From: a virus
IMG/VR virus record: IMGVR_UViG_3300042319_002138
Location: 62,001-126,000 of that record
Length of the DNA: 64,000 bases
Direction: 5' to 3' (one strand)
Each line of letters begins with the position of its first letter. Within the stretch, counting starts at the first letter, position 1. Below, piece by piece: positions 35,123-63,234 of the stretch. Made by a program: the position numbers and the translations under genes. Below the pieces are notes generated by a model that had not been told where the DNA came from, did not search any database, and was given only the letters and a program-made list of their open reading frames with translations.

Positions 35123-38100
35123 ATGCCAAACGCGATAAACCCAAATGATTATAATATAGATTTTTTCGCCACCGATTTTATTGGTGTTACGACAGCAGAA
35201 AGTTTTAGAGATTATCTTTTTAGTAAAAATTTACCTGACTTACCACCTGAATTAATTAACGGTGCGGCAGGTAACTTTAGTAGTGACTATGCTGAAAAAG
35301 GTTTGGAGAAATCCATTAATTATACAAGTATATCGAATCCCGGTGATATTGATGAGTGGTTGGTGGAGGGTAATTTTTCCACTTCACTTCACGAAGTTAG
35401 AGATATTAATTTATTATCAGGTAATAACTATGGGCCACCGACAATCGAGGCCTATAATGAACCAGGTTTAATACCTGAAAACACAGGTTTCTTACAATAC
35501 CCTACTTCTTCAGGTGGAGACGACCTTAAATCAATTTTATTAAGTGACCAATTAGCAGGTTTAGGACCTGGAGCGGCAATTAATTTTCCTTCAGACTTAA
35601 ATGATATTGCGAAAGATAGAAGAAAAGAAGAAGCTATTAATAGACTTAAACTTAAAGCTCAAGATAATATTTTAGGTAAATTAAATTTAGACCCTTTTGG
35701 ATTATTAGCGGGAGAAGATTTAATCCTTAGAGATTATAAAATCACAACAAGACCGACAGTTTTAGGTAAGGTATTTGAATTTTTTAGTGATGCAGCAGAT
35801 GTAACAATACCGAATAGTCCAATACCGTCAGGTGCCTTTGGTTCCTACGGAGATTTAGATAACCCAGTTTCGTATTCCGATTTAATGGACTCTACTGGTT
35901 CTGGTACAAAAACTTTAATCTATAACGCTGTAGCTAGAAATAAATACGGACCTACATTAAGTGAACCAAAAGGTTTCTTAGCAAATACTTTTGGAGCAGG
36001 ACAAGCTGCACAAAAAAATAATTATTTATCACCCGCTAGTACAACATTAGGACAAGCGTTAGGAATTCCTTTAATAGATAAAATAAATCAGGCTGTAGGA
36101 AAAGCGGTTGACGCTTTAAATGGTGGGGTTAATAACGGGGTTGGTATAGAAGGAAATACACCACCCACAGAAACAGAAAACCCATCAATCACATTAGACA
36201 ATATCCAAGAAAACGCACAGGCTGAATTTGATACATTATGGAATGGTCAAAATATAGATACTTGGCAAACACAGGGACCCATAACTAAAATAGAGATACC
36301 TGGTATTGGATTAAGTCTAACTATTCCTGATAATGGACCCGATGGACCTATAGGTACAAAAATACCTATGAATGTTGGTGATGAATTTTACCCAGGAGAA
36401 ATAAATGGTTCTAAAAATAGTGGTATATCTTATGATAGGGGAATGTATTGGGGTAGTCACACCAACAACCCATTTAAAAAAGGTATTTTAAAATACACAC
36501 AAGATTTAATTAATAATTCTAGAAATACAAAAGATTATAAAGATAAAGCAAGATTTGTCGGTGCAACAAACGACGCCTCAAATTTTGATGCAAAAAGTGG
36601 TAGACATAATAATTACTCTATGGGTAACACCGTTACTGATGCAGAAAACAATTTTTATTGTCGTTCTTGGTCTGTAAGAAATCCATACAGAAAAGTTAGT
36701 GATTTAATTAGACACGGAGGTGGTGTTGATTCTTCTGGTAATACAAGAAGTTTAACAAGAGAAGATTTAAATTTAAGTGTATTAGATAATAATGGTTTTG
36801 TTAAAATAGCACCATATGTTGGGGATTTTAAATCTAGAAGTTTCAGCACTGATGGTAGTGAAAATAATTTAGAATCTGGTGTATTAAAATTAGGAAATCC
36901 ACAAATTCAAAAATACATGTTGTCTATTGAAAATTTAGCTTGGCAAAATAGTGAACATATATTACATGTTGCTCCTTGTGAGGTAGGACCTAACGGTGGA
37001 CGTATAATGTGGTTCCCACCCTATGATATTAGTTTTACCGATAACTCTAGTGCCAATTGGGAAGCAACAAGTTTTATTGGTAGAGGTGAACCTGTGTACA
37101 CTTACAATAATACCGAAAGAAGTGGTACCCTTAGTTTTACCTTGATTATTGACCACTCAATGGCAATGACTGAAATAAAACAAAAGGGGGAAGAAGCTTT
37201 ATTTAGATATTTCGCTGGATGTGAAAATCCAATAGAAGCCTTTACGTCAATTGTACCTAAAGCAGTTGAAGATGAAACAAAGGTACAACAAGTTACAGAA
37301 ACAACAACAACTAAAACTGATGTAACTAAAGATAACCCTGAAGTTTGTGACCCTGAACCACCACCAGTAACTAAGTTACAATTTTATTTTAGGAATGCTA
37401 GAAGATTTGAATTAGATTCTGTTGGTACAAACTTAACAACTGAATTAGGTTCTAATGCTGATGAAAAACCACCCAATTATTTATCTCAATATACTAAACT
37501 TTGGCCTAATGGTTATTTAAGAGGTAGTTCAGGTACACCACCACCTACCATACCTAACCCGAATAATCCTGGTCAGTTTATACCTAACCCTGCTTTTACA
37601 TCTAGTACACAAACTGATATAGAAACTTTAAACCAACAAGCTTTAGACAATTTAAATACTTTAGTTGATTTCTTATTAACACCTGACGGTAAAAGATATA
37701 AAATTAAAATTATTGGTAAAACAAGTGATGCAGGACCAACTTCAGGTGGTAAAAGTAATGAAAAATTAGCTCAAAAACGTGCTAATTCAACAAAAGATTA
37801 TTTATTAAACACACTTTACGCTGTAGAAACAGCTGTTGGTGTTGTTAAAGCAGAAAATTTAGGTTCACAAAAAACATACCCAACGGAAAAAGAATGGCGA
37901 GATAGTAATTTAAGATGGGAAGTTTTAGCTGTTGGTGAAACCGATTCTAGTTTATCAGTATCTTATGATGATGGTACTGGACAAAAAACGGAACAAAAAG
38001 ATGATAATAGAACTTTTGGTGATTCACAAACAAGTGTACCACAAGCTATAAGAAATAGAACAACACTAGTTACTTTAGAATATAATAAAGAAATTGATGA

Positions 38101-39496
38101 TACTTTAATTGGTGCGGCACAACCACCAATAACAGAGCAAACAGAACAAACAGTAGTTACTGTTAGAGATGTTGAAACCACAATACCCGCTAGTAAAGAA
38201 AAAATAGAAAGACAACGTGAAGCTGAATTAGCTGCAGCGTTAGCAGCGAAAGCTTCTAGATACATGGCTTGGGAATGTTCTTATTTTGAAAAAATGAAAC
38301 AAGATGATTCATTTATTTATGAAACATTAACACAGAAATTAAAATATTTCCACCCAGCATTTCACTCAATGACACCTGAAGGTTTTAATGCTAGATTAAC
38401 ATTCTTAAAACAATGTACAAGACAAGGACCTAACATTGCTGTAGGTGAACCTAGTAATTTAGCATTTGGTAAACCACCTGTTTGTGTTTTAAGAATTGGT
38501 GATTTTTATCATACCAAAATTATTATAGATTCAGTTAATTTAACTTTTGACCCATTACAATGGGATTTAAATCCTGAAGGTATTGGTGTACAACCAATGT
38601 TATGTAAAGCTGATTTAAGTTTTAAATTTATTGGTGGTTCTTCACTAGGTGGACCTATATCACAATTACAAAATGCAGTAGGATTTAACTTCTTTGCTAA
38701 TACGGCCTTATATAACCCAAGAGTAATTTCTAAATCGGTTGGTAAATATGTAACAAAAAGGGTTGACCCACTTACAGGACAAGAAACTGAATTTACAGTA
38801 CAAACACCTGCAGGAGCTAATGGTTCTATTGAATACGGTGCTTTCATGACACCTAGACAATCAACATCAACAAGTTTATCTAATAATGACTCTAATGGGT
38901 CTACATCAAATTCTAGTACAGATACGGTACCAAATGATAAAGCAAAAGCTACAGCTGATGCACAACAAGCGGACCAACAAGTAGCTGGTAAAGAGGCACA
39001 ATCAACAGTTGCTGAACAAACTAAAGTTGACCAAGAGTTCACTAAAAAAGAAGAAGAAATAGCTGATAGCTCAACAGCAGAAAATGATGGTGTGAAAGGA
39101 AATACATTCCCTGGATTTGATAAAAAGACTGGTGTATATACAATGCAATATACACAAATATTAACATGGAAAAAAGGTGGTGGAACAAATGCCGCACCTG
39201 CCGGTGTTAATAAGTTAAAGGTAGAAAAAGGACAAAAAGTTTATTTACAAACTACCACAAACGGAAAAGAAATTTTTATTGGTGGTTCATTTAAAAACCC
39301 TGATAATAATAAAGTATATAGTACAATAAACAACCCTCTTAGGGTATACTGTAACGGGGATAACGGTTTCAATTTCTTCTTTGTAGAATCATCTGGAAAT
39401 AGTGGTTTTTATACAAACACAGGATTCTATAATGTGGTAAAAAAAGTATTCTGTAAAGGTACTGTACCTAAAACATGGGCTGAATTAACAGCATAA
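35123..39496 (+). CDS. Large baseplate protein with OmpA-like domain
   Basis: The 1457-aa protein contains, at about residues 610-690, a segment common in contractile-tail proteins: ENLAWQNSEHILHVAPCEVG, then GRIMWFPPYDISF, and FIGRGEPVYTYNNTERSGTL. Residues ~815-950 are OmpA-like: IKIIGKTSDAG and SNEKLAQKRANSTKDYLLNT, the peptidoglycan-binding pattern. Residues ~1070-1220 (KYFHPAFHSMTPEGFNARLT, VCVLRIGDFYHTKIIIDSVN) resemble proteins that sit next to the hub in other phages. The end (~1320-1457) is a Cys-containing beta domain. It starts a cotranscribed run with gp53-like, Hint-bearing and hub genes. Its exact T4 counterpart is not clear. Confidence 0.78.
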   Translation: MPNAINPNDYNIDFFATDFIGVTTAESFRDYLFSKNLPDLPPELINGAAGNFSSDYAEKGLEKSINYTSISNPGDIDEWLVEGNFSTSLHEVRDINLLSGNNYGPPTIEAYNEPGLIPENTGFLQYPTSSGGDDLKSILLSDQLAGLGPGAAINFPSDLNDIAKDRRKEEAINRLKLKAQDNILGKLNLDPFGLLAGEDLILRDYKITTRPTVLGKVFEFFSDAADVTIPNSPIPSGAFGSYGDLDNPVSYSDLMDSTGSGTKTLIYNAVARNKYGPTLSEPKGFLANTFGAGQAAQKNNYLSPASTTLGQALGIPLIDKINQAVGKAVDALNGGVNNGVGIEGNTPPTETENPSITLDNIQENAQAEFDTLWNGQNIDTWQTQGPITKIEIPGIGLSLTIPDNGPDGPIGTKIPMNVGDEFYPGEINGSKNSGISYDRGMYWGSHTNNPFKKGILKYTQDLINNSRNTKDYKDKARFVGATNDASNFDAKSGRHNNYSMGNTVTDAENNFYCRSWSVRNPYRKVSDLIRHGGGVDSSGNTRSLTREDLNLSVLDNNGFVKIAPYVGDFKSRSFSTDGSENNLESGVLKLGNPQIQKYMLSIENLAWQNSEHILHVAPCEVGPNGGRIMWFPPYDISFTDNSSANWEATSFIGRGEPVYTYNNTERSGTLSFTLIIDHSMAMTEIKQKGEEALFRYFAGCENPIEAFTSIVPKAVEDETKVQQVTETTTTKTDVTKDNPEVCDPEPPPVTKLQFYFRNARRFELDSVGTNLTTELGSNADEKPPNYLSQYTKLWPNGYLRGSSGTPPPTIPNPNNPGQFIPNPAFTSSTQTDIETLNQQALDNLNTLVDFLLTPDGKRYKIKIIGKTSDAGPTSGGKSNEKLAQKRANSTKDYLLNTLYAVETAVGVVKAENLGSQKTYPTEKEWRDSNLRWEVLAVGETDSSLSVSYDDGTGQKTEQKDDNRTFGDSQTSVPQAIRNRTTLVTLEYNKEIDDTLIGAAQPPITEQTEQTVVTVRDVETTIPASKEKIERQREAELAAALAAKASRYMAWECSYFEKMKQDDSFIYETLTQKLKYFHPAFHSMTPEGFNARLTFLKQCTRQGPNIAVGEPSNLAFGKPPVCVLRIGDFYHTKIIIDSVNLTFDPLQWDLNPEGIGVQPMLCKADLSFKFIGGSSLGGPISQLQNAVGFNFFANTALYNPRVISKSVGKYVTKRVDPLTGQETEFTVQTPAGANGSIEYGAFMTPRQSTSTSLSNNDSNGSTSNSSTDTVPNDKAKATADAQQADQQVAGKEAQSTVAEQTKVDQEFTKKEEEIADSSTAENDGVKGNTFPGFDKKTGVYTMQYTQILTWKKGGGTNAAPAGVNKLKVEKGQKVYLQTTTNGKEIFIGGSFKNPDNNKVYSTINNPLRVYCNGDNGFNFFFVESSGNSGFYTNTGFYNVVKKVFCKGTVPKTWAELTA

Positions 39497-39507
39497 AATT
39501 TTAAAAT

Positions 39508-39822
39508 ATGGCAATATACTACGATAGATATAGAGATTTCAGGAAAGACGGTATGGTAACAACCTTACCGTTTATAAAAATACCTGTAAAACCATCAGAC
39601 AAAAGAATTGTTACGGATAATAAAACAAGATTTGATAAAATAAGTCAAACTTATTATGGGAATCCCTTCCATGGTTGGTTGATATTACAAGCTAATCCAG
39701 AATTCGGTGGTTTAGAGTTTGACATTCCTGAAAATACAGTTATAATAGTACCATTTCCTTTAAACAAATCATTAGAGGAATACCAATCTCAAGTAGAGAG
39801 ATATAAAAGATTATACGGATAA
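39508..39822 (+). CDS. gp53: gp53-like baseplate protein with LysM-like fold
   Basis: The 104-aa protein contains RFDKISQTYYGNPFHGWLIL, QANPEFGGLEFDIPENTVII and VPFPL at residues ~45-93, a LysM-like arrangement (D-x-I, YYGNP, a WxxIxxxNP segment and a Pro-rich end) as in T4 gp53 and tail protein X. In T4, gp53 completes the baseplate wedge and joins it to the hub. It is shorter than T4 gp53 (196 aa). It is spaced 11 and 14 bp from its large neighbours, so all three are in one operon. Confidence 0.7.
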   Translation: MAIYYDRYRDFRKDGMVTTLPFIKIPVKPSDKRIVTDNKTRFDKISQTYYGNPFHGWLILQANPEFGGLEFDIPENTVIIVPFPLNKSLEEYQSQVERYKRLYG

Positions 39823-39836
39823 ATAATAAGTTTTTT

Positions 39837-42800
39837 ATGGCACTTAATCAAGGACCACAACCAAAAGTTCAAGATATGGGTAACGGAATTAGATACGTTG
39901 ACCCAAACCCAACAGATGAAATAGTTAATCACGAAGACTTGGTGATGTATGTAAAACTAGTTGCTAGGTCTAAAGGTAGAAGTATCTTAACATTTGATGA
40001 CGCTAATGACCAAGTTACTAATATTGTAGAACAAAGAAATGTAAAATCAGAAACTAACTTCACATACCCAACAGGTAAAGATAGTATTGATACTAGTTGG
40101 ACTAACATTGGGGGTGGTAACTTAAACTTTGGTGAAGATTTAGGTTCATTTGGTATCACAAATATTAATATAGAATTTAAATCTAGTTTCATGCCACAAA
40201 TTGTAATTGATTTTGTGGATGTTCGTGGAGCAGCTTTATTTGAACAAGGACCCTGTTCACCTTACGCAGTCTTTTTTCACTTACCTTACCCTGTTTTTGA
40301 ATTAACAGTAAAAGGATATTATGGTAGACCAGTTACATACACATTAGCTTTAACTAAATTTAATACAAAATTTAATTCGGACACAGGTAACTTTGAATCG
40401 AAAGCAGAATTTGTGGGTTATACTTATGCATTCTTAGCGGATATCCCTATGGGATATGTTATGGCAGCTGGATTTATGGAAAAACCACATAATGGTAAAG
40501 ATATTTTGGCTGAAAAATGGAAATTATTAATGGATAAAAAAGTTTTGGTTAATAATGTAGAAACACCATTAATAGACCAAACGTCATTCACTGATGCTAC
40601 AAAACCTATAAACGTTTATGATTTAATTAAATCCTCTAAAAAACTAGAATCAAGAACAAGTGAATTAAAAAATTCTACACAAGTAACCAATTTAGGTAAA
40701 ATTAATAAAACCAAAAATGAGTTAAAGGGGTTACGAGAATCAGTTTTAGAATTTAGACAAAAATTTTTAGAAAAAATAGCTAATTCCCCCAATGGTGGGT
40801 ATAGAATTAGTCCCAATACTACAAACCAAAAAAACACATTATATTTAAAATTACCCAACGTTAGTGCATCAGATGATAATCCAGTATTAGTTGAACTTAA
40901 AAAAGTAGTTGAAACTTATTTTGGTACAGGGGAAAACTCTCAATTAGGTGGTACTATAGGTGCAAAATATAATTCCGTAAATAGTTATTACACAAATAAT
41001 GCTATTGATGGACCACCAATACTTTCTTGGGATACAATTAAAACTAATGCTTCTGGATTTTTCGGTACACCAATAAATATAGTTGATGGTTTAAGAGATT
41101 ATTATATTGATATATATGAAAGTTTATTAAAACCTATTGATGTTGCTAGTGTAGAACTTAATAAAAAATATATAATTGAAAAAGATAATACTAAAAATTT
41201 CTTAAACAAAGAAGTTGTGACCACGTTAGGTTTTTTACCTACAATTAGTAATGTTTTTGCTATAATTCTAACAAACGTTGAGGTATTTCTAGAATTACTA
41301 TTAAGAACTTCTCGTGACGCAGAAAAATATCACCAAGAAAATAATGTGAATATTGGCCTAGATAAAACTGGGCTCCAACAAATTTTAGATTTAAAAGGTA
41401 CCCAAAATAATGGTGCTGAATTATCTGATGAAGAGAACGATAAACAAAAAAACAAAGTATATCCTTGGCCAACATATTATGAAAAGAAACAAGGTTCTGA
41501 TAGTGAAGTTGGGGATAAAGAAACATACCCAGGGGAAAATCCCGAATTTGTTAGTTGGCCTGAAGTAATATTTGTTGAATCGTTTATTAAAGCTTTAACA
41601 AAATTAAAAGGTGAATTAGCTGTTTTAGAATTACAATTAGAAAATTTACCTGGTTATGATAATTTTGCCCCAATCACACCCTACGAAACTCACGCATTTG
41701 GTGTAGTAGAATCACCAAATAGATGGTTAAAAATACAAAACGGTAGTAGTGACCAAGCTTCTTGGGCTGATTCAATCTATAAAGTAATGGGTGAAAATGC
41801 TTTTATTATTGGTGACTACACTATGATTAATAGTTTAAGTGTTTGGAAATCACAATTAGGTTTTAAAAATGGTTGGGGTGTAGAAACATTAACTAATGGT
41901 AATGGGGCTAGTAATGGATATTCTAACACTGGTAATAAGTATTCTATTAAACCACAAAGATTAGCAGAAAACCCAAAAGTATTACAAAATATTGCTGCAA
42001 ATAACCAATTAGGTAGATATGGTGGTGAAGGATTTACCTACGGTTCACAAGGGAAAGATACAGATTCTTTTAAAAGAAAAATAGTTCCCGCTACCACAAA
42101 AAGAATGAAAGATTGGGGTTATGTTGATGCTTTAAATTTGATGACAACCCTTAAATTAGATGGCGGGGTAAATACGACCCTAGAATGGTTACAAAATGAT
42201 ATTACAACAGCAAAGAAAGATTTTATTATAACAGAAATAAAAAGAGTTTTAACCAATAAACTTAAAACACAAAAATTTGATGAGTGGAAAGTTTCGGCTA
42301 CCGCGGCTATTGGTGGTACACCAGCTCTTGTAGATAAACAATCACAAATATGGAATAGCTATTTCCAATACGTTACAGCTAAAAATGTATTAACACTAAC
42401 AGGCCCAATTTATTTAAATGATAGGGTTGATAGTGCTAAAGATATAAAAATATCAGCAAACCCACATAATAATGACGGAAGTGGAGCTGTTTTAGTAAAA
42501 GACACTGATTTAACAGCAAGAGAAATAGATTTTAGTAGTGATTCATTAATAGAAGAAATTAAAAATGGTTATAAAAAATATTATGCTAGTACTGAAGAAA
42601 CTGATAGTGGTATAGCCGAAAATCTTTTAGAAGTTGGTTCTTTAGCGTATAGATTATTAAAATTCAGGCCAAAAACACCTAGGGACAAACCAACTACCGC
42701 TTATGATACAAAAAAAGTGATAGAGACAGAGGCTGACATAAATTTAAGTAGAGATAAAAATACAAATATGCTTACTTTAGGTGATTATTTTGCACCTAAT

Positions 42801-45014
42801 TTTTATCATACATATGAAAACCTAAAAGACCTACCACAAGAGGGACCAATATTAGATTTAAGTTCATCGAGAACAATTTATGACAGTTATTCTCCAAAAT
42901 ATATATTTTGGTCTAATTTTATGGGTGCCTCAAATACTAATACTTCTGTTGGTTCCGCGGATTCAATAATAAACACACCACTATGGTTACTTAATTATCC
43001 TTTATGGAAAAATTCTTGGCAATACGCTGAGTCTGGTGGTGATAACGGTACCGTGGCTCTTGATGAAGTAGTTTCAATAGTGGCTGGTAAAACTTCTGGT
43101 GAATTTGCTACTTACCTTGGAGAAGATATTGGTACATACCCATCTTACCATAATAAAGCTGATTCAAACCAAAGAAGAAATTGGTCTACTTGGTGGGGAT
43201 TAAATCAGTGGGGTGTAGATAATACTAATAATATATACAAACCATTGGCTTATATGGCGGTAATGTCATTTGGTTTTGATAATTTAAAATCTGAATTTAG
43301 AACAGGACATTTTCCACCTTGGGATGGCAATAGTGATACAGATTTATCATCATTTTCTAATTTCACAACTTCAGCTATTATGGCATATCCACCTAAAGCT
43401 TATATATTATTAATTGGAGCCATTTTATGGAGAATGAAAGAAACTAATTTATTATTATGGGACGAAATAAAACCTACAAAAGACCCTTTTCCTTATGACG
43501 CTAGTATAAATTCAGGGTGGAATAGATTAAATAAATCATACCTTTCTGACAATTCAAATATAGGTATAGATGACATAAACGACCCTGTATGGTTTTTCCA
43601 TACATCTACGTCTAGACCTTGGTTTAAAGGTGGTTCTGTATACGCAATAAAACCAGAACAAAATGCTTTATCTTTTGGTGGTACAAATTCTAGTTATCAA
43701 AGAAGATGGTTAGGTGCCCAAGGGGGTGTAGATAGATGGACCAATGGTGGAGCATCCATAAGTAAAAATTTTGGAACTCAAAAACCAGTAATTATCGGAC
43801 CTAATAACAGTATTAATTTTCCTCCTGGTTTATCTGCTTCTGATTTTAACTTTACAAATTCATTATATCGAGCCGGATGGACTAAATCAAGTTCTATTTT
43901 TGGTAAAAATGATGATAAAGTCCCTAGTAATGGTATATTTAGAAGTGCTGTAGGTAATATTACCAAAGGATGGTTTGACCAATGTAGACCCGACCAAATG
44001 CCTTTTATTTTAAGTGATAGTGGTAGAGGTATTGATTTTACAAGTCCTAAAACATTGGTTATTACTAATCTAAGTACTGAAACAAATAAGAATATCAATT
44101 ACAGTGATAAGACACCTAATTTATTAAATAATAAATACCCTATTTTAAAAGAAGAATGTAAAGAATTAATGTTTATACCAAAAAGTTTAAAAATACAATT
44201 TATTGATGCTTTTGAATCTTGGGCAACAGGTGAAAATGCTAGATGGTTATTAGGCTTAGACCCATTAAATTGGAATGATAATGGTAGTTTAGATAATTGG
44301 TCAACAACAAGTGGTGGTTTTGATAATTCATATGTTTTAAATGGGTATAAAGGATTTTTAACTCAGACTGTTAGAAAAGATAGACAGTATTTAACATACA
44401 CCAAAGAAGATAAGAAAAATTACTATACACAACGTTTTACTTTTCTTGATGAGGGTGAATTATCTGGCACAAAACCAAAACCAAAAAAACAAAAGAAAAG
44501 TAATAGTAATACTGATTACGAACCAGCATCACCTACTTATGATGTTTCATGTTTTGTGGCTGGTTCTAAAATTAAGTTAAGTAGTGGTAAAAATATTAAT
44601 ATTGAAGATTTAGTAGTTGGTGATATTGTATTAAGTTATAATGTAAATACAAATATTTTTGAAGAAAGTAGTATTGAAAACGTTACAATAAATTATAAAG
44701 ATAATCTTGTAATTTACAATTTTGATAACGGAATTAAAATAACTTGTACCGATACCCACCCTATTTGGGTTGTTGGTAAAGGTTGGTCTTCTTATAGACA
44801 AACTGATGTAAATGATTCTGAACATATAGGACCCACAAAACAAATTAGTAGTGGTGATGAATGTTTTTATTATTCTAACAATAAATTTAATAAAGTTAAA
44901 ATTTCTAAAATAATTGAAAAACAAAATAAAATGGTTAGGGTTTGGAACGTTAAAAACGTTACTGGTAACCATAACTTCATCATAAATAATGTTTTAGTAC
45001 ATAACGTTACATAA
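39837..45014 (+). CDS. 1725-aa baseplate protein with C-terminal Hint domain
   Basis: Residues ~1-230 are a beta-rich start (NIEFKSSFMPQIVIDFVDVR, VFELTVKGYYGRPVTYTLAL) of a type seen in baseplate proteins of related phages. Residues ~230-1540 are long and mostly unrecognised, rich in Asn, Tyr and Trp. A basic linker (KPKPKKQKKSNSNTDYEPAS) leads to a Hint domain at 1572-1723. The catalytic blocks look intact: Cys1572, TDTH in block B, and the closing VLVHN. Only Val-Thr remain after the His-Asn, then the TAA, whose last A is the first base of the next ATG. The protein may cut itself after assembly. It has no clear T4 counterpart. Confidence 0.78.
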   Translation: MALNQGPQPKVQDMGNGIRYVDPNPTDEIVNHEDLVMYVKLVARSKGRSILTFDDANDQVTNIVEQRNVKSETNFTYPTGKDSIDTSWTNIGGGNLNFGEDLGSFGITNINIEFKSSFMPQIVIDFVDVRGAALFEQGPCSPYAVFFHLPYPVFELTVKGYYGRPVTYTLALTKFNTKFNSDTGNFESKAEFVGYTYAFLADIPMGYVMAAGFMEKPHNGKDILAEKWKLLMDKKVLVNNVETPLIDQTSFTDATKPINVYDLIKSSKKLESRTSELKNSTQVTNLGKINKTKNELKGLRESVLEFRQKFLEKIANSPNGGYRISPNTTNQKNTLYLKLPNVSASDDNPVLVELKKVVETYFGTGENSQLGGTIGAKYNSVNSYYTNNAIDGPPILSWDTIKTNASGFFGTPINIVDGLRDYYIDIYESLLKPIDVASVELNKKYIIEKDNTKNFLNKEVVTTLGFLPTISNVFAIILTNVEVFLELLLRTSRDAEKYHQENNVNIGLDKTGLQQILDLKGTQNNGAELSDEENDKQKNKVYPWPTYYEKKQGSDSEVGDKETYPGENPEFVSWPEVIFVESFIKALTKLKGELAVLELQLENLPGYDNFAPITPYETHAFGVVESPNRWLKIQNGSSDQASWADSIYKVMGENAFIIGDYTMINSLSVWKSQLGFKNGWGVETLTNGNGASNGYSNTGNKYSIKPQRLAENPKVLQNIAANNQLGRYGGEGFTYGSQGKDTDSFKRKIVPATTKRMKDWGYVDALNLMTTLKLDGGVNTTLEWLQNDITTAKKDFIITEIKRVLTNKLKTQKFDEWKVSATAAIGGTPALVDKQSQIWNSYFQYVTAKNVLTLTGPIYLNDRVDSAKDIKISANPHNNDGSGAVLVKDTDLTAREIDFSSDSLIEEIKNGYKKYYASTEETDSGIAENLLEVGSLAYRLLKFRPKTPRDKPTTAYDTKKVIETEADINLSRDKNTNMLTLGDYFAPNFYHTYENLKDLPQEGPILDLSSSRTIYDSYSPKYIFWSNFMGASNTNTSVGSADSIINTPLWLLNYPLWKNSWQYAESGGDNGTVALDEVVSIVAGKTSGEFATYLGEDIGTYPSYHNKADSNQRRNWSTWWGLNQWGVDNTNNIYKPLAYMAVMSFGFDNLKSEFRTGHFPPWDGNSDTDLSSFSNFTTSAIMAYPPKAYILLIGAILWRMKETNLLLWDEIKPTKDPFPYDASINSGWNRLNKSYLSDNSNIGIDDINDPVWFFHTSTSRPWFKGGSVYAIKPEQNALSFGGTNSSYQRRWLGAQGGVDRWTNGGASISKNFGTQKPVIIGPNNSINFPPGLSASDFNFTNSLYRAGWTKSSSIFGKNDDKVPSNGIFRSAVGNITKGWFDQCRPDQMPFILSDSGRGIDFTSPKTLVITNLSTETNKNINYSDKTPNLLNNKYPILKEECKELMFIPKSLKIQFIDAFESWATGENARWLLGLDPLNWNDNGSLDNWSTTSGGFDNSYVLNGYKGFLTQTVRKDRQYLTYTKEDKKNYYTQRFTFLDEGELSGTKPKPKKQKKSNSNTDYEPASPTYDVSCFVAGSKIKLSSGKNINIEDLVVGDIVLSYNVNTNIFEESSIENVTINYKDNLVIYNFDNGIKITCTDTHPIWVVGKGWSSYRQTDVNDSEHIGPTKQISSGDECFYYSNNKFNKVKISKIIEKQNKMVRVWNVKNVTGNHNFIINNVLVHNVT
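44550..45005 (+). other. Hint (intein-like autoprocessing) domain
   Basis: Region of the 1725-aa protein, 152 residues. Block A: CFVAGSKIKLSSG with EDLVVGDIVLSYN. Block B: CTDTHPIWV. Block F: RVWNVKNVTGNHNFI. Block G: NVLVHN. No endonuclease domain is inserted. The residue after HN is Val, not Cys/Ser/Thr, so normal protein splicing is not expected. Cleavage as in bacterial intein-like domains or hedgehog-like ester formation are the options. Confidence 0.85.
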
Positions 45015-46942
45015 TGAGTGATAACACAAGATTAGTAGGATTAAAAAAAGATAAAAACAAAGAACTGTATGAAGAATTATTTGTAACTGATTCTAAATAC
45101 CGTTTAATTTCTTCATCACCTAAAGTTTTTTCTGCCATACATCCTGATGATTTTAATGAAGAATTTTATATATCTGAGGATGAATTAAGTTCATACGTCG
45201 ACGGATTTATTCAAGCGGTGTCAGACAATTCCAAAAAAATTATTGAGTCAATTACACAAAATACGGATAATAACGATAATATAGCTGATTCCGCTTTAAA
45301 TGACACAGACCTAAAACTTTCTTTATATCGTTCATTTAAATCACTTTACGATAAATGGATTTCTTGTTCTGTAATTGGTTCAGATAGTACTTCGGGTAAT
45401 ACTTCAGGTTATTTCTATAATAACTATGGTAGTAGTAGTCCATCTGAAACAAGGATGTTATATGAACATTTTAGTTTTGTTAATAGAGGTAATGGTGATG
45501 TGGGTAAAAAAGCAGTTATAGATTTTTCATACCTTTCTAATTTAGCTAGTACCAAAAACGGACAAGGGCCAACACAATCCCTATACGAATCTATAACTAA
45601 TTTATTAACAAAAAACAATTTTGAATTTTTTGCAATGCCAAACGTAATTGGGTATTCTACAGGGGGCAATGAAGTTCTTGAAAATATTTTTAGAGCTTTC
45701 GATAGTCCTATAGATAGAATACCCGCTAAACCTGGATTTGTGTGTATGTTTATTGGGGGTAATTCTAGGACATTAGATATACCAAAAACTTCATGTAGTA
45801 ATAATGGTATTAATTTTGATTATGTAGACGATACCTTTGATATAGATAAACCCACTACATACCCAGAAGATTTTATTAAAAATGGTGGTATAACAGCTTT
45901 TAAAGTTAGATACGGACAACAAACCCAAAATCATTTTAAATCTTTAGAACTAGACCAATCCGAATTTAAAGAAACTCAAGAATCACTTTTGGTAATTGAT
46001 GCCTTAACAAATCCTAGTAGTGGCTCAGACCCAACACAAATTGGTAAGGGTAATAATATTTATGATATGTATTTGACAAGAAACTATTCTTGTACTGTTA
46101 ACACATTTGGTAACATGCAAATACAACCAATGATGGTCTTTAAATTAGAGAACGTCCCAATGTATAAAGGAACTTATTTAATTACAAACGTCAGTCATTC
46201 CATAAAACCACACAATGTAGAAACAACATTTAAAGGTGTGAGACAACCAATAGTCACCGTACCTATTGTAACAGAAGCTTTGAGTTTGATTGACCTAGCT
46301 CTAGCTGAAACACTACAAGGAGATGCTGCTTTAGGTAACACTGGTGGGGGAGGTGGAGGAACCACAACTACAACTACAATATTACCAGCCAACCAAATAT
46401 TCATAGACGATACTGTTTATGGAGATAGTTCAAATGAACAATGCCCTAAAATAGACGGTATAACAGATGGTGGTGTTGGTGACGCTTATACCGGTGGTAA
46501 ATTATTTAAAATTAGGTTATGTAAGGTAAAAGGTGCACTTATAAACGTCAAAATGGCGGAAAATTTAAATAATATGGTTAATGCCGCACAAGCGGATGGT
46601 GTACCATTAACTTGTGGTAGTAACTTTAGAACAATGGAAGACCAAATAAATACGGCTAAAGCTAATGGGTGTTATAAAACAGGTGTTTATGTAAAAGGTA
46701 ATTGTGACCCTGATACTGCCACACCAGGGAGGTCAAGACACCAAAGTGGATTTGCAATAGATTTTGGTTGTAATGGGTCGACAATTTGTTATAAACACGA
46801 TTCAGCTTGGTGTGCCGCAAATGGTGCTTCTAAAAAACCAAACGAATATGTTTGTTTTAATTGGTTGGTTAATAACGCCTCAAAATACGGATTTATTAAT
46901 TACAACGGTGAGGCTTGGCACTGGTCAATAGATGGTACATAA
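45014..46942 (+). CDS. Hub paralogue 1 with M15 peptidase cargo
   Basis: The 642-aa protein has the shared hub scaffold at residues 1-440 and a Gly/Thr linker (TGGGGGGTTTTTTI) at ~442-455. The last ~130 residues are an M15 (VanY-type D-Ala-D-Ala carboxypeptidase-like) domain with SRHQSGFAIDFG (H576, D583) and GEAWHWS (E633, H636), the full zinc site. The scaffold end (CTVNTFGNMQIQPMMVFKLE, GTYLITNVSHSI) looks like the hub fold of gp27/gpD proteins. It would place a peptidoglycan-cutting head at the tail tip. The ATG overlaps the TAA of the Hint-bearing gene, so translation is coupled. Cys pairs in the cargo suggest it is stable outside the cytoplasm. Confidence 0.82.
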   Translation: MSDNTRLVGLKKDKNKELYEELFVTDSKYRLISSSPKVFSAIHPDDFNEEFYISEDELSSYVDGFIQAVSDNSKKIIESITQNTDNNDNIADSALNDTDLKLSLYRSFKSLYDKWISCSVIGSDSTSGNTSGYFYNNYGSSSPSETRMLYEHFSFVNRGNGDVGKKAVIDFSYLSNLASTKNGQGPTQSLYESITNLLTKNNFEFFAMPNVIGYSTGGNEVLENIFRAFDSPIDRIPAKPGFVCMFIGGNSRTLDIPKTSCSNNGINFDYVDDTFDIDKPTTYPEDFIKNGGITAFKVRYGQQTQNHFKSLELDQSEFKETQESLLVIDALTNPSSGSDPTQIGKGNNIYDMYLTRNYSCTVNTFGNMQIQPMMVFKLENVPMYKGTYLITNVSHSIKPHNVETTFKGVRQPIVTVPIVTEALSLIDLALAETLQGDAALGNTGGGGGGTTTTTTILPANQIFIDDTVYGDSSNEQCPKIDGITDGGVGDAYTGGKLFKIRLCKVKGALINVKMAENLNNMVNAAQADGVPLTCGSNFRTMEDQINTAKANGCYKTGVYVKGNCDPDTATPGRSRHQSGFAIDFGCNGSTICYKHDSAWCAANGASKKPNEYVCFNWLVNNASKYGFINYNGEAWHWSIDGT

Positions 46943-46948
46943 AATATT

Positions 46949-46995
46949 ATGGGTGATAAAAAAAATTAATAGGATTAAAAAAATAAGATAAAAAT
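46949..46995 (+). pseudogene. Relic of a fourth hub-paralogue start
   Basis: The gap between paralogues 1 and 2 begins ATGGGTGATAAAAA and matches the first ~45 bp of the paralogues with a few substitutions and one 2-bp insertion. It keeps TAGGATTAAAAAAA and AGATAAAAAT. It reads MGDKKN and then stops. It looks like the stump of a lost or partly duplicated copy. Confidence 0.7.
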
Positions 46996-46996
46996 A

Positions 46997-48982
46997 ATGA
47001 GTGATAACACAAGATTAGTAGGATTAAAAAAAGATAAAAATGATGAACTGTACAAAGAATTATTTGTAACTGATTCTAAATACCGTTTAATTTCTTCATC
47101 ACCTAAAGTTTTTAGTGCAATTCACCCTGAAGATTTTGGAGAAGATTTTTATATTTCAGAGGATGAACTAGGTTCTTATATTGATGGATTTATTCAAGCG
47201 GTGACCGATAACTCTCAAAAAATCATTGATTCCATCACACAAAATACAGATAATAACGATAATATAGCTGATTCTGCTTTAAATGACACAGACCTAAAAC
47301 TTTCTTTATATCGCTCATTTAAATCTCTTTACGATAAATGGATTTCTAGTTCAGAATATAACCAACAACAAACATCTAATTATTTTTATAATGCATATTC
47401 AGCAGAAAAAACTGACGAAAGAATGTTATACGAACATTTTAATTTTGTTAATAGATGTGGTACTGACATAGGTAAAAAGGCTGTTATAGATTTTGCTTAC
47501 CTTTCTAATTTAGCTAGTACCAAAAATGGGCAAGGACCTACACAATCACTATACGAATCTATAACTGGAGTTTTAAGTAAAAATAATTTTAATTTCTTAC
47601 CATTACCTGGGTATATTAAATATTCAGACGCAAATACAAGTGAATTAGAAGATATGTTTAGAGCTTTTGATGGTCCACTAACTAAAATGAGAGCAAACCC
47701 TAAATTTGTGTGTATGTTTATTGGTGGTAGTTCTAGAAGTTTAGATATACCTAGGTCTTATTGTGGTACTAACGGAACTAATTTTGAATATAAAGATGAT
47801 TCTTTTGACATATTTGACCCAACCACTTACCCCCAAGATTTTAATAACGATAAAACAAGTGGTATTGTGGCTTTTAAAGTTAGATACGGACAAGAAACCC
47901 AAAACCACTTTATTAAAGTGGAGTTAGACCAAGCTGAGTTTAGGGAAACACAAGATTCACTTTTGGTAATTGACGCTTTGGTAAACCCAAGTAGTGGTTC
48001 GGACCCAACACAAATTGGTAAGGGTAATAATTTATATGATGTTAACTTAACTAGAGGTTACACTTGTAAGGTTGAGACTTTGGGTAACATGCAAATACAA
48101 CCCACAATGTTTTTTAAATTAGAAAATATCCCAATGTTTAGAGGTACTTATCTAATTACAGATGTATCACACACAATCGTACCACATAACGCTAAAACAA
48201 CTTTTACAGCAACAAGACAACCAATAATTACGGTACCAATTGTGACCGAAGCTTTGAGTATATTAGATTTATCTTTAGTTGAAACAGTACAAGGAGACAC
48301 GAATTTAAATAACACTGGAGGTGGAGGAACCACAACAACCACAACAACTGATAATAATTATGACGAATCTACAGTAACAACATTCAGTGGAATTGATGAT
48401 TGTGTAACAACTTCTTTAAATAGTGTTAAAAATGATGGGTCCTTCCCAGTAATCATAAAAGGATGTTATACGGCTAAAGATTTAGGTGGAGACGCCTTAC
48501 ACTCTTTTAATACTAGAAAAAGTGATAATTTTGGTGGTTATATGTTTACTGAATCAGCAGTACCAGCTAATTTTAGTAATAGAGTTAAAGTTGGTACACA
48601 GGGTGGAGTTTATGCTGGAAAAGGTGTTAACACTGTAATAAAAGAAATAAATAGTAAGGGTGTTAAAGTAAAAGTTTCAAAAATAGAAATTAATATAGAT
48701 TGGACTAATTATTTTGTTAGTTGGGCAGTTACAATAGAAAAAAGTACTGACGAAAAATCTTACATTGGAGTAGCTACTAGAGGTTCAATAGGTAGTATAT
48801 CTTCTGGAAACTATTCAGACAGAGCAGATTCACAAATACCGACATTAAAAAGCCAAAACCCAGAATACGCAAATTGGGTTTCACCAAAAATTATTTATAA
48901 TAAAAATATAATGGCAACTGGTTATTTAGAAGACCCTAAAAAACAATTAAGACAATATTTTTTAGCTTATACAAAAGCTTAA
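46997..48982 (+). CDS. Hub paralogue 2 with unknown cargo domain
   Basis: The 661-aa protein starts with the same 44 nucleotides as the other two copies and keeps the hub scaffold to about residue 436. A Gly/Thr linker (TGGGGTTTTTTDNN) at ~438-452 joins it to a ~205-aa C-terminal domain that I do not recognise. This part is beta-rich with a few aromatic turns (FGGYMFTESAVPANFSNRVK, TQGGVYAGKGVNTVIKEINS, VSKIEINIDWTNYFVSWAVT, IGVATRGSIGS). No zinc, Glu or Ser-His catalytic site stands out. By position it should act on the cell envelope as the other two cargos do, either as an enzyme or as a binding domain. Confidence 0.78.
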   Translation: MSDNTRLVGLKKDKNDELYKELFVTDSKYRLISSSPKVFSAIHPEDFGEDFYISEDELGSYIDGFIQAVTDNSQKIIDSITQNTDNNDNIADSALNDTDLKLSLYRSFKSLYDKWISSSEYNQQQTSNYFYNAYSAEKTDERMLYEHFNFVNRCGTDIGKKAVIDFAYLSNLASTKNGQGPTQSLYESITGVLSKNNFNFLPLPGYIKYSDANTSELEDMFRAFDGPLTKMRANPKFVCMFIGGSSRSLDIPRSYCGTNGTNFEYKDDSFDIFDPTTYPQDFNNDKTSGIVAFKVRYGQETQNHFIKVELDQAEFRETQDSLLVIDALVNPSSGSDPTQIGKGNNLYDVNLTRGYTCKVETLGNMQIQPTMFFKLENIPMFRGTYLITDVSHTIVPHNAKTTFTATRQPIITVPIVTEALSILDLSLVETVQGDTNLNNTGGGGTTTTTTTDNNYDESTVTTFSGIDDCVTTSLNSVKNDGSFPVIIKGCYTAKDLGGDALHSFNTRKSDNFGGYMFTESAVPANFSNRVKVGTQGGVYAGKGVNTVIKEINSKGVKVKVSKIEINIDWTNYFVSWAVTIEKSTDEKSYIGVATRGSIGSISSGNYSDRADSQIPTLKSQNPEYANWVSPKIIYNKNIMATGYLEDPKKQLRQYFLAYTKA

Positions 48983-49021
48983 TTATACTATCTGTTTTAG
49001 TTAAAAAAATAATAAAGTAAT

Positions 49022-51559
49022 ATGAGTGATAACACAAGATTAGTAGGATTAAAAAAAGATAAAAACAAAGAACTGTATGAAGAATTATTTGTAACTGATT
49101 CTAAATATAGGCTCATATCTTCTTCACCTAAAGTTTTTTCTGCTATTCACCCCGAAGATTTTGGTGAAGATTTTTATATATCTGAGGATGAATTAAGTTC
49201 TTATGTTGATGGGTTTATTCAAGCGGTGACAGACAATTCCAAAAAAATTATTGAATCAATTACACAAAATACAAATAATAACTCTATTGAGGATAACATG
49301 TCAAGTGACCCAGATGTTAAACTTTCATTATATCGTTCATTTAAATCATTTTATGATAAATGGGTATCTAATTCTTATGATAGTGTAAATAAATCTTCTG
49401 GTTATTTCTTTAATAATTACGGTGAAGAAGATGATAGAATGTTATATGAACATTTTAAATTTATTAATAGAGCAAATCAAGACGTGGGTAAAAAAGCAGT
49501 TATAGACTTTTCATACCTTTCTAATTTAGCTAGTACCAAAAACGGACAAGGGCCAACACAATCACTATATGAGTCATTGACAAGTTTATTAAGTAAAAAC
49601 AATTTTGATTTTTGGCCATTACCAGCAAACATTGATTTATCAACAGTATCATTAACAAATGAACAAGTAAAAGATATTTTTAGACCATTAACATTTATAG
49701 ATAAGGTACATCCAGGACCATCATTTGTTTGTGTTCATATTGGGGGTAGTTCTAGGTCTCTAGCTGATTTAAAAGACAATAGTAATACTTGTAGTGTTAA
49801 TGGTGGTAATTTTGAATATGTTGATGACTCTTTTGATATTACAAATACAGTAGATTTACCGGTTGAATACACTAAAGAAGGTGAGGGTTTAGTTGTTTTT
49901 AAAGTTAGATATGGGCAAGAAGCACAAAATCATTTTAACTCAATAGAGTTAGACCAAACAGAATTTAAAGAAACACAAGAATCTTTACAAATAATAGATG
50001 CCTTAACAAATCCTAATAGTGGCTCAAACCCATCACAAATTGGTAAAGGTAATAACATGTATGATGTTTATTTAACAAGGGCTTATAATTGTACGGTTTC
50101 AGGTTTGGGTAATATGTCAATACAACCTTTAATGTATTTTAAATTAGAAAACGTACCAATGTTTAGAGGTACTTATCTAATTAATGCCGTTAGCCATACA
50201 ATAACAAATAATAAAATTACTACTGAATTTACTGGTATGAGACAACCCAAAGTAACCGTACCTGTTGTAACTGAAGCTTTGAGTTTAATTGATTTAGCTT
50301 TAGTTGAAGTAGTACAAACTGATACAACTACCACTAATACTAATGGTAATGGAAGTACTACTGATAGTGGTGATTATAGTGGTGGTGATATTTCAGTATT
50401 TAATAGTGTTGATACAAACGCTAAAGGTTGTGAGATTATAGGAAGACTTAAGGGTGATTTGGGTATAACTGATGCACAGGCCGCTGGTATTATTGGTAAT
50501 TTAATTGCTGAATCAGGTTTAATACCTGATAGAATACAAGATAGAAAAGGGAGAAAACCAAGGGGACTTATAACAGAATCTGGTGGATGGAATGGAACTA
50601 CATTTTCTAAAGGTGGGGAAGATGAAGAAGGTTATGGTTGGGCACAATGGACTTTCTATACATTAAAAAATGATTTTATAGAATATGCAAGTACTAAAGG
50701 TTTTGATTTAAAAACAAAACCAGCAACAGATGAAATTAATTATGGTTATTTAATATATTGGTTAACTGTATCAGAAGGTGGTAAAAAATTTGAAAAATTT
50801 AAAAGTGAAGATACAGTTTATAAAGCAGCAAAATATGTTGCTCAAAAATGGGAAAGATGTGAATTTTGTCAAACAGAGGCTGAATGGAAAAAAAGAAGTG
50901 CTTTTGCACAAAACGTGTTTGATAGTTGTGGTAAAACACCAACTGGTGGGGGTGGTACAGGAAAACCACCAGAACCAAAAAATTGTAGTAGTTCTGTTAA
51001 ATTTGGTCTTAATGGTGGTGGTACTTTAGCTAACGCTAAAAACGCTATTGTTGGTTCTTCAAGTGTTGGGACCCTTAATGGTATGAGTAAATCTAGTACT
51101 TACGGTAACTTAACTAGTAATAATATATACGTATACTATAACTGTGGTGGTAAAACACTCTCTTGGTTAAAACAACAAATTAATGGAGACGGTAATGTTT
51201 ACACAAGTGTAGAATCATTCTTCCAAGTAGGTATTGGTACTAATGACGGGTATCCAACAAAGGATAGTACCAAGAAAGATATTAAAGCATATACTGATTT
51301 GGTTAGAAAAAAATTCCCTAACGCTACATTATATATTTTACCTGGTACTCGTGGTTGGGGAAGTGTTTCTAATACTACACTTAGTCAAATGAAATCTTAT
51401 TATAAACAATATACAGATTTAGGTTGGACTTTATTGTGGCCTTTAAATAGTTCTAGTAATGAAATAGACCCTTATTTTGACACACAAACAAAAGCTCACA
51501 ACAGTAATGATGAATGGTTTAAAAAACAAATGAAAAGAATCAAAGATAATAAGAGTTAA
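49022..51559 (+). CDS. Hub paralogue 3 with lysozyme and SGNH-like cargo
   Basis: The 845-aa protein has the hub scaffold to about residue 433 and a Thr/Asn/Gly linker (TTTTNTNGNGSTTDSGDYSG). Residues ~465-640 match the tail lysozyme family (Phage_lysozyme2 type): AAGIIGNLIAESGLIPDRIQ with the catalytic-type Glu, and GYGWAQWT. A GGGGTGKPPEPKN linker leads to residues ~655-845, an SGNH-hydrolase-like domain: AIVGSSSVGT (block I), VGIGTND (block III) and a late DPYFDTQTKAHNS (block V-like). SGNH domains can remove acetyl groups from peptidoglycan or glycans, which would help the lysozyme; this is inference. The block I Ser context is not standard, so the SGNH call is weaker. Confidence 0.8.
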   Translation: MSDNTRLVGLKKDKNKELYEELFVTDSKYRLISSSPKVFSAIHPEDFGEDFYISEDELSSYVDGFIQAVTDNSKKIIESITQNTNNNSIEDNMSSDPDVKLSLYRSFKSFYDKWVSNSYDSVNKSSGYFFNNYGEEDDRMLYEHFKFINRANQDVGKKAVIDFSYLSNLASTKNGQGPTQSLYESLTSLLSKNNFDFWPLPANIDLSTVSLTNEQVKDIFRPLTFIDKVHPGPSFVCVHIGGSSRSLADLKDNSNTCSVNGGNFEYVDDSFDITNTVDLPVEYTKEGEGLVVFKVRYGQEAQNHFNSIELDQTEFKETQESLQIIDALTNPNSGSNPSQIGKGNNMYDVYLTRAYNCTVSGLGNMSIQPLMYFKLENVPMFRGTYLINAVSHTITNNKITTEFTGMRQPKVTVPVVTEALSLIDLALVEVVQTDTTTTNTNGNGSTTDSGDYSGGDISVFNSVDTNAKGCEIIGRLKGDLGITDAQAAGIIGNLIAESGLIPDRIQDRKGRKPRGLITESGGWNGTTFSKGGEDEEGYGWAQWTFYTLKNDFIEYASTKGFDLKTKPATDEINYGYLIYWLTVSEGGKKFEKFKSEDTVYKAAKYVAQKWERCEFCQTEAEWKKRSAFAQNVFDSCGKTPTGGGGTGKPPEPKNCSSSVKFGLNGGGTLANAKNAIVGSSSVGTLNGMSKSSTYGNLTSNNIYVYYNCGGKTLSWLKQQINGDGNVYTSVESFFQVGIGTNDGYPTKDSTKKDIKAYTDLVRKKFPNATLYILPGTRGWGSVSNTTLSQMKSYYKQYTDLGWTLLWPLNSSSNEIDPYFDTQTKAHNSNDEWFKKQMKRIKDNKS

Positions 51560-61362: not shown

Positions 61363-63234
61363 ATGGCAACACAAAGTAAAAAAATAAATTATTTTGCGAG
61401 GAACTTCGCTGATGTAAGAACCGAACTAGTTAATTTCATTAAATTATATTACCCAGAAGTATTTTCTGATTTTAATGACGCATCAGTAGGGATGATGTTA
61501 TTAGAGTTAAATGCGGCTGTTGGAGATATGTTATCCAATCACACAGACCGAATGTTTAACGAAACTTTTTTGGATTATGCACAAGAAAGAAAAAATGTTT
61601 TAGCTATAGCAAGAACATTGGGGTTAAAAGTACCAGGTCTAAGACCTAGTATTACTTTAGTAGATTACTCCGTTGTAGTACCTGTATACGGTGATACATG
61701 GGATATTAGATACGCACCAACGATTAGATACGGTTCACAAGTTTTAGGTGGTGGACAAGTATTTGAAAATTTAGAGGATATAGACTTTTCTTCACCTTAT
61801 ACTGTAGGTGGTACACCTAATAGATTAATTCTACCTAACATAGATGATAATGGTACATTACAAAATTATACTATAGTTAAAAGAGAGTTAGTAATTAATG
61901 GTTTAACGAAAATCTTTAAAAAGAGTATCTCACAAAGTGAGTCAGTACCTTTCTTTGAAATATTTTTACCTGATACAAACGTACTTTCAATTGAAAGTAT
62001 AATAAATCTTGAAGGTACAAATTATAGTAATAACCCAACAATAGACCAGTTCATTGACCCAGATTTAAGATGGTATGAAATGGATTCGTTAGCTGAAGAT
62101 AAAGTTTTTATTGAAGACACTAGTAGAACTACTGATAATGAAGCGGTTAAACCTGGTAAGTATGTTCACACAACAAGAAAATTTGTTAGAGAATTTACTG
62201 ATAATAATTACTGTAAATTAACTTTTGGTAGTGGTGTTAGTACAGACGATGAACAATTACAAAACATATCTACAACTGGTATAAAAATAGGTGACTTTAT
62301 AAATACTACAGCTTTAGGTGAAATAATTAAACCAAACACAACCTTATTTATTAGATATAGAGTTGGTGGTGGACCTAGTAGTAATATAGGACCTAATGCT
62401 ATAAACGCAATTGGTAATGTTACTTTAAATGTAAATGGACCCAACACACCAACAAATCAATCGGTAATAAGGTCGTTAAGAGTTAATAACCCAATTCCAG
62501 CAATAGGTGGAGCTGGGGTACCTTCAGTTGACCAAATAAGACAATATACAAAGTATAATTTTGCCTCACAAAATAGAGCGGTTACTATTAAAGATTATGA
62601 AGCTATTTTAGCTAAAATACCTGGTAGATACGGCTCACCTTATAGACATAAAATAGCTGAGGAACAAAATAAAGTAATTATTTATACACTAGGTTTAGAT
62701 GCTTCAGGTAAGTTAACAAACCAATCTACTAATACTCTAAAAGAAAATATAGCAACTTGGTTATCAGATTATAGAATGATAAATGATTACGTATTAGTTG
62801 GTGATGGTAAAGTAGTTAACCTAGGATTTGAAATAGACTTATTTATAGATAAACAGATTAATCAATCAGAATTAATTAATAACGTTATTACTAGTGTTAA
62901 AAATTATTTTGATGTTAAGAAGTGGGAAATGGGTGATAATATTTATATCGCTCAATTGGTTGAAAACATTAATAATGTTGGTGGTGTACTAAATGTTATT
63001 GATATAAGAGCTTACAATTTAATAAGTTCTCCTTATTCATTAAACCAAACATCACAAAATTTCATACCAGAATCTTTAGTAAATGGTGTTATACCATTTA
63101 ATAATGGTAAACTAATTGATTTAGGTTCTGATTACGCTTTATTTGGTGATATAGACTCTATGTTTGAAATTAAGTTCCCTGAAAGGGATATAAAAGTAAG
63201 GATTAAGAGAAGTTCGACTGTAACTGAAGGGTAA
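61363..63234 (+). CDS. gp6: gp6-like baseplate wedge protein
   Basis: The 623-aa protein fits gp6 (T4: 660 aa), the baseplate J-like family: an N-terminal SDFNDASVGMMLLELNAAVG, NETFLDYAQERKNVLAIART, a central beta region with FGSGVSTDDEQ, then RAVTIKDYEAILAKIPGRYG, and a closing LNVIDIRAYNLI. Gp6 forms the ring that ties the wedges together. It lies 12 bp after gp25 and is followed by a partial gene only 2 bp downstream. Confidence 0.9.
   Translation: MATQSKKINYFARNFADVRTELVNFIKLYYPEVFSDFNDASVGMMLLELNAAVGDMLSNHTDRMFNETFLDYAQERKNVLAIARTLGLKVPGLRPSITLVDYSVVVPVYGDTWDIRYAPTIRYGSQVLGGGQVFENLEDIDFSSPYTVGGTPNRLILPNIDDNGTLQNYTIVKRELVINGLTKIFKKSISQSESVPFFEIFLPDTNVLSIESIINLEGTNYSNNPTIDQFIDPDLRWYEMDSLAEDKVFIEDTSRTTDNEAVKPGKYVHTTRKFVREFTDNNYCKLTFGSGVSTDDEQLQNISTTGIKIGDFINTTALGEIIKPNTTLFIRYRVGGGPSSNIGPNAINAIGNVTLNVNGPNTPTNQSVIRSLRVNNPIPAIGGAGVPSVDQIRQYTKYNFASQNRAVTIKDYEAILAKIPGRYGSPYRHKIAEEQNKVIIYTLGLDASGKLTNQSTNTLKENIATWLSDYRMINDYVLVGDGKVVNLGFEIDLFIDKQINQSELINNVITSVKNYFDVKKWEMGDNIYIAQLVENINNVGGVLNVIDIRAYNLISSPYSLNQTSQNFIPESLVNGVIPFNNGKLIDLGSDYALFGDIDSMFEIKFPERDIKVRIKRSSTVTEG

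Follow-up and report, generated by a model that had tools for sequence, protein, structure and literature searches.

The window analyzed here, a stretch of 64,000 nucleotides (positions 62,001 to 126,000) of the 226-kb IMG/VR record IMGVR_UViG_3300042319_002138, derives from an uncultured virus of bacteria. It contains a contractile-tailed phage locus with genes for a tail sheath, a baseplate hub (phrog_150), a small wedge-like protein, a baseplate wedge, UvsX and DnaB, and the small wedge-like protein, ORF1 and the three hub ORFs described next lie on its + strand. The small baseplate wedge-like protein (39508–39822; phrog_7145, E = 4e-4) is encoded just upstream of ORF1 (39837–45014), a 1725-residue tail or baseplate “arm” protein that carries a C-terminal Hint domain and is homologous to the N-terminal ~1400–1750 residues of fused chains in other viruses. 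The stop codon of ORF1 overlaps the start codon of ORF2 in the sequence TAATG (45012–45016). ORF2 (45014–46942), which bears a VanY carboxypeptidase domain and is fused to ORF1 in wider relatives, is the first of three hub-module paralogs; the second is ORF3 (46997–48982), recognized by hub homology, and the third is ORF4 (49022–51559), in which Pfam identifies a tail lysozyme domain (PF18013). Across this tandem array (45014–51559) the N-termini are near-identical (MSDNTRLVGLKKDKN) and the C-terminal domains differ, and it is possible that ORF2–ORF4 form a hetero-oligomeric tail tip with several hydrolases. With an AlphaFold2 hub model of pLDDT 38, the label “hub” is based on the presence of hydrolase domains, on synteny and on the location among tail genes. 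A further tail-locus protein, of 1457 residues, is encoded at 35123–39496 and contains an OmpA-type domain (PF00691, residues 834–898).

The Hint domain extends from Cys1572 to Asn1723 (44550–45005) and is preceded by a disordered, partly lysine-rich linker at about residues 1513–1565 (44373–44531; pLDDT <50). The domain is complete. Its first residue, Cys1 (C1572, 44550–44552), is the predicted nucleophile of an N-S acyl shift, and it is followed by the TxxH motif of block B, here TDTH (T1638–H1641, 44748–44759), by the block-F His and by a closing His-Asn pair in block G (His1722-Asn1723; 45000–45011 with the Val-Thr tail), such that the domain ends ...NHNFIINNVLVHN and only Val, Thr and the stop codon remain. 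Pfam searches with the whole of ORF1 returned PF14890 Intein_splicing at residues 1583–1723 (E = 1.4e-6), at 28.7 bits and hence below the curated cut-off of 35.8, as well as PF01079 Hint (E = 2.9e-5). When the C-terminal piece of ORF1 was searched alone, TIGR01445 intein_Nterm scored 27.4 bits and so exceeded its cut-off (24.5). Phmmer against the PDB matched Tetrahymena BIL2 (3.4e-6) and also the DnaB intein. The Hint signal in ORF1 lies well beyond chance. AlphaFold2 modeled the domain with block-mean pLDDT values of mostly 87–98, and Foldseek with this model placed BIL2 (6y75) at the top (E = 9e-12, TM-score 0.87 to the target), with TM-scores of 0.86 for the DnaB intein, 0.86 for the C. 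thermocellum BIL and 0.72 for Hedgehog. The initial annotation had read 44550–45014 as a Hint domain with a starting Cys, TDTH, a closing HN and Val-Thr-stop at the end of a baseplate protein, and both parts hold: position 44550 opens the codon of Cys1572, profiles and fold agree, and the sheath and baseplate genes place the protein in a contractile-tail locus. These results support a Hint domain that is complete and without a usable C-extein. No second Hint match was found in the whole 226-kb record.

What does the counterpart of ORF1 look like in other viruses? A scan with the conserved N-terminal segment of ORF1 returned 124 stretches, the best 80 of which were kept. Among these best 80 of 124, 73 loci lie outside the close clade of the window, and in them ORF1 is longer (~2000–2650 residues where complete) and runs on into the hub module of ORF2. 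A hub profile located the hub inside the same ORF in 66 of the 73, the other seven being contigs that end before the hub, such that every sufficiently complete wider relative among the best 80 of 124 (66/66) encodes a fused chain. Neither a Hint domain nor a separate hub copy nearby was found in the 73 wider loci of this same best 80 of 124. A hub-based scan added five more fused loci; some of the 73 loci are near-duplicates, and 50 distinct fused rows were used in tree building. The Hint of ORF1 is therefore located where the chain, continuous and Hint-free in these relatives, is interrupted. Searches by tblastn with the arm N-terminus or the fused chain found no cultured relatives, the matches in cultured phages being Hints of other proteins, and no relatives were found in the cellular genomes searched. 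In one wider relative, L103, the part shared with the window reaches the hydrolase end of the hub, and its fused 2629-residue arm-hub chain (L103:8587–16476) aligns with two of the window's hub paralogs, the one with the lysozyme and the one with VanY.

The split clade comprises five lineages, namely the window, L006, L007, L183 and L014. Hub copies occur in tandem in this clade (2–3 or more), with three in the window (VanY on ORF2, tail lysozyme on ORF4), two in L014, two in L183 (amidase and lysozyme) and two in L006 before the contig ends, another being present in the similar lineage L180. A Hint lies exactly at the arm/hub break in four of the five lineages. The exception, L014, encodes this protein with an unchanged gene order but no Hint, and its stop codon is equivalent to a position just before the linker; L014 shows that split proteins can do without the domain. 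All four Hint-bearing lineages retain Cys1 and the block-B His. The block-B Thr is present in the window, L006 and L007 and is replaced by Glu in L183. L006 is 58% identical to the window overall and 56% in the Hint, and L007 43% overall and 38% in the Hint; both keep Cys1 and TxxH though the Hint diverges about as fast as the rest of the protein. The closing HN is present in this virus only: L006 ends in VLVYN-stop with zero residues past the Asn (YN), L007 ends in THQGTKN-stop (HQ), and in L183 the pair is absent. The ORF1 stop codon falls 0–4 residues past the last Hint residue in three lineages. The ORF1 of L183, partial at its 5′ end, carries a C-terminal Vint-type Hint (PF14623, 36.5 bits against a cut-off of 27) with Cys1 and His and without HN. 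In this family, then, the residues of a putative N-terminal half-reaction (Cys1, the block-B His, and Thr in three of four) are conserved while the splicing-specific C-terminal residues decay. By the initial annotation's own criterion, its reading would be refuted if close relatives had lost the catalytic residues, and it had proposed looking for this Hint in related tails; the C-terminal pair is indeed altered or absent, while Cys1 and the block-B His are not, and the domain recurs in the split lineages (4/5) and is missing from the complete fused relatives (66/66 among the best 80 of 124).

Two other positions vary within the clade. Residue F:4 is often Asp and is involved at the N-terminal splice site; read off the alignment, the window has Asn at this position, L006 has Arg and L007 has Asp. 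The hub N-termini read MSDN in the window (all three paralogs), MSER and MSNER in L006 and MTYQ in L007, and a Ser/Thr N-terminal nucleophile on ORF2 common to all Hint-bearing lineages was considered and rejected on account of L183, which has MADR and MGDR; the Hint-less L014 has Ala. The Hint of L183 (L183:2238–2696) occupies the corresponding place in this protein family but is of the Vint type and not of the intein type, which suggests that one domain replaced another at the split site or that such domains were acquired there repeatedly.

Phylogenetic trees recover the split clade as one group, with support of 100/99 for the arm N-terminus, 100/100 for the arm C-terminal half and 99/99 for the hubs. 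L014 is nested within it, grouping with the window and L006 against L007 in the arm N-terminus tree and with L183 at 89/97 in the tree of the arm C-terminal half. For this reason, either L014 has lost its Hint or the domain was acquired on more than one occasion. In the tree of the Hints themselves, the window and L006 are sisters (99/99), L007 has no resolved place and L183 lies on a very long branch, and a common origin of the four Hints is not proven by this tree. The trees are unrooted; under midpoint rooting the fused state comes out as ancestral, which is likely to be correct.

How could a Hint domain at the very end of a chain be of use? In Hint chemistry, Cys1 undergoes an N-S acyl shift with the block-B Thr and His assisting (PMC4031507). 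Type A BILs, which have no +1 nucleophile, mostly cleave, and they can ligate through attack of a free amino group on the thioester (PMC4031507). In BIL2, the N-extein is passed to a lysine in an ATP-independent reaction (PMC8616854). We consider it probable that ORF1 ends in a BIL-type autoprocessing domain that activates the C-terminal end of the chain a single time, by autoprocessing of one kind or another. Cys1572, aided by Thr1638 and His1641, would take over the peptide bond before it in an N-to-S acyl shift, which would convert the 1571-residue arm into a thioester. The thioester would then be broken and the Hint shed, leaving an arm that ends at Ser1571 and whose C-terminus would be either free, after hydrolysis, or in a new amide bond to a nearby amine on a neighbor. 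The C-terminal His-Asn would have nothing useful to release and would not be needed by the family. We infer that the acyl shift occurs and that the Hint leaves, and a mature form of ORF1 without the Hint is plausible because the Hint-less relative L014 ends naturally just before the position of the Hint. Counted in favor of autoprocessing are the complete domain with its confidently modeled fold, the retention of Cys1 and TxxH at 58% and 43% identity, the Vint-type Hint of L183 with Cys1 and His, the BIL precedents and the occurrence of the domain in split lineages only; counted against it are Asn at F:4, Glu for Thr in L183, the Hint-less L014, the variable N-terminal residue of ORF2 and an origin of the Hints that is not proven to be single.

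In virus assembly, the Hint may thus trim the end of a giant chain or join the chain to a partner. The reading of the initial annotation, self-cleavage or joining to another molecule during baseplate assembly, is partly supported. As possible partners it had listed a lipid, a glycan or a neighboring protein; a neighboring protein would be the more natural acceptor, with the hub paralogs as candidates, because the Hint is found precisely where wider relatives have an unbroken chain, a context that the initial annotation had not noted. A narrower form of autoprocessing, which we hold only tentatively and regard as rather unlikely, is that an amine of a hub paralog (its N-terminal alpha-amine or a lysine) resolves the thioester and so rebuilds the arm-hub chain post-translationally. 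The hub is multiplied only in the split clade, where the Hint marks the break; ORF1 and ORF2 adjoin in all five split lineages, with the TAATG overlap in the window; and BIL domains are known to ligate via an alpha-amine (PMC4031507) and via lysine (PMC8616854). However, the hub N-terminus has no conserved nucleophile once L183 is counted, and L014 is split yet Hint-less. Ligation to hub chains is an attractive but unproven proposal. If it is true, a connection that relatives encode in one gene would be restored, and one arm gene would serve several hubs. Slightly more doubtful again is the extension in which several alternative hub paralogs, each with a different C-terminal (mostly cell-wall hydrolase) domain, would become covalently attached to one arm protein without ATP, which would amount to combinatorial assembly of a tail tip at the protein level.

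An alternative hypothesis is that the arm-hub junction once held an intein or BIL, which was deprived of its C-extein by the gene split and persists as a harmless, possibly inactive tail. Such a history would fit the stop codon 0–4 residues past the last Hint residue in three lineages, the decay of the C-terminal catalytic residues and the Hint-less L014, but neither Cys1 nor the block-B His varies in an open domain whose identity falls to 38%, a different Hint subfamily occupies the same place in L183, and no fused relative among the best 80 of 124 has a Hint at the junction; we judge it improbable. Quite unlikely, in our estimation, is that the Hint stays in place and serves only to bind the split hub chains and keep them together: it is appended only where the covalent link was lost, but this gives no reason for the kept Cys1 and TxxH, and a flexible disordered linker of ~50 residues precedes the domain. 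Active intein splicing of ORF1 to ORF2 via frameshifting or stop read-through, for which L006 offers a stop, one codon and then an ATG in the same frame, is highly improbable given that the other frame in the window reads HN-Arg-Tyr-Ile-Met without a +1 nucleophile or an obvious slippery site, that stop position and frame vary among lineages and that HN is not conserved. A hidden +1 Cys in the −1 frame, displaced by a recent frameshift, was likewise rejected, since the codons read CAT AAC GTT ACA TAA, with Arg in the other frame.

Terminal Hints are not confined to this family. A Hint profile scan of viral contigs yielded 205 stretches, and many of these Hints are terminal, typically ending HN-Lys-stop, on unrelated proteins and often with at least two Hints in tandem; most of the terminal viral Hint proteins tested match phrog_21587. 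That virus proteins repeatedly end in a Hint speaks for a function of a domain that has no C-extein. It also makes a terminal Hint by itself less new, and the novelty is the split-hub context. One group (L020, L030, L034, L037, L066 and relatives) consists of ~620–925-residue proteins, mostly phrog_21587, that have two or possibly three tandem Hints, a next Cys 2–3 residues after the HN, and mostly an HN-Lys-stop end. In L076–L078, L080 and L081, the tail protein phrog_2048 has a terminal Hint ending FVVHN-Lys-stop and is another virion protein so built. In Vibrio phage PS65A.1 (MW824434.1) and relatives, and in L095, a Hint lies within a large protein, annotated in cultured vibriophages as hypothetical or as a DNA helicase, and is probably an ordinary intein. 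In the literature searched, no description of a phage baseplate protein with a terminal Hint was found. Chains that are fused, split with a Hint and split without one offer a natural comparison, which makes the role of the Hint directly testable. If the Hint ligates, phages build a tail tip by protein ligation.

Proteolytic maturation of tail proteins is known from the maturation cut of T4 gp5 and from the S74 chaperone autoprotease, whose folds and chemistry are unrelated to Hint. If the Hint of ORF1 only cleaves, it would make a maturation cut by chemistry unlike that of gp5 and of S74 (PMC7824862). With its Hint fold, Cys at position 1 and block-B His, the domain belongs to the Hint superfamily, and its assignment within that superfamily is as follows. 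Class 1 mini-inteins (DnaB, gp41-1) share the fold and blocks A, B, F and G, but the Hint here has neither a +1 Cys/Ser/Thr nor a C-extein, Val-Thr-stop being all that follows, and is not inside a conserved protein; the fused relatives are continuous and Hint-free as inteinless alleles would be, but the gene here is already split. With type B BILs and the Hedgehog Hog domain it would share an activity whose conserved part is N-terminal cleavage or transfer only. Unlike type B BILs, which have no intein-like block G, the window Hint still has HN, this type B feature being seen instead in L007 (HQ) and L183 (none), and the two residues after the domain leave no place for the sterol- or adduct-recognition region that follows the Hint in Hog. 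The signature of type A BILs (C. thermocellum, 2lwy) is found in the window, with Cys1, TxxH, a C-terminal HN and a non-nucleophilic Val at +1, whereas only two residues follow here, HN is not kept in the relatives and the host is a phage tail protein. Although Tetrahymena BIL2 (BUBL1 locus, PDB 6y75/6tmm) lies between two ubiquitin-like domains and the Hint of ORF1 forms the end of a virion protein and lacks a C-extein, BIL2 is the closest solved counterpart in both sequence and fold and shares Cys1 and the block-B His.
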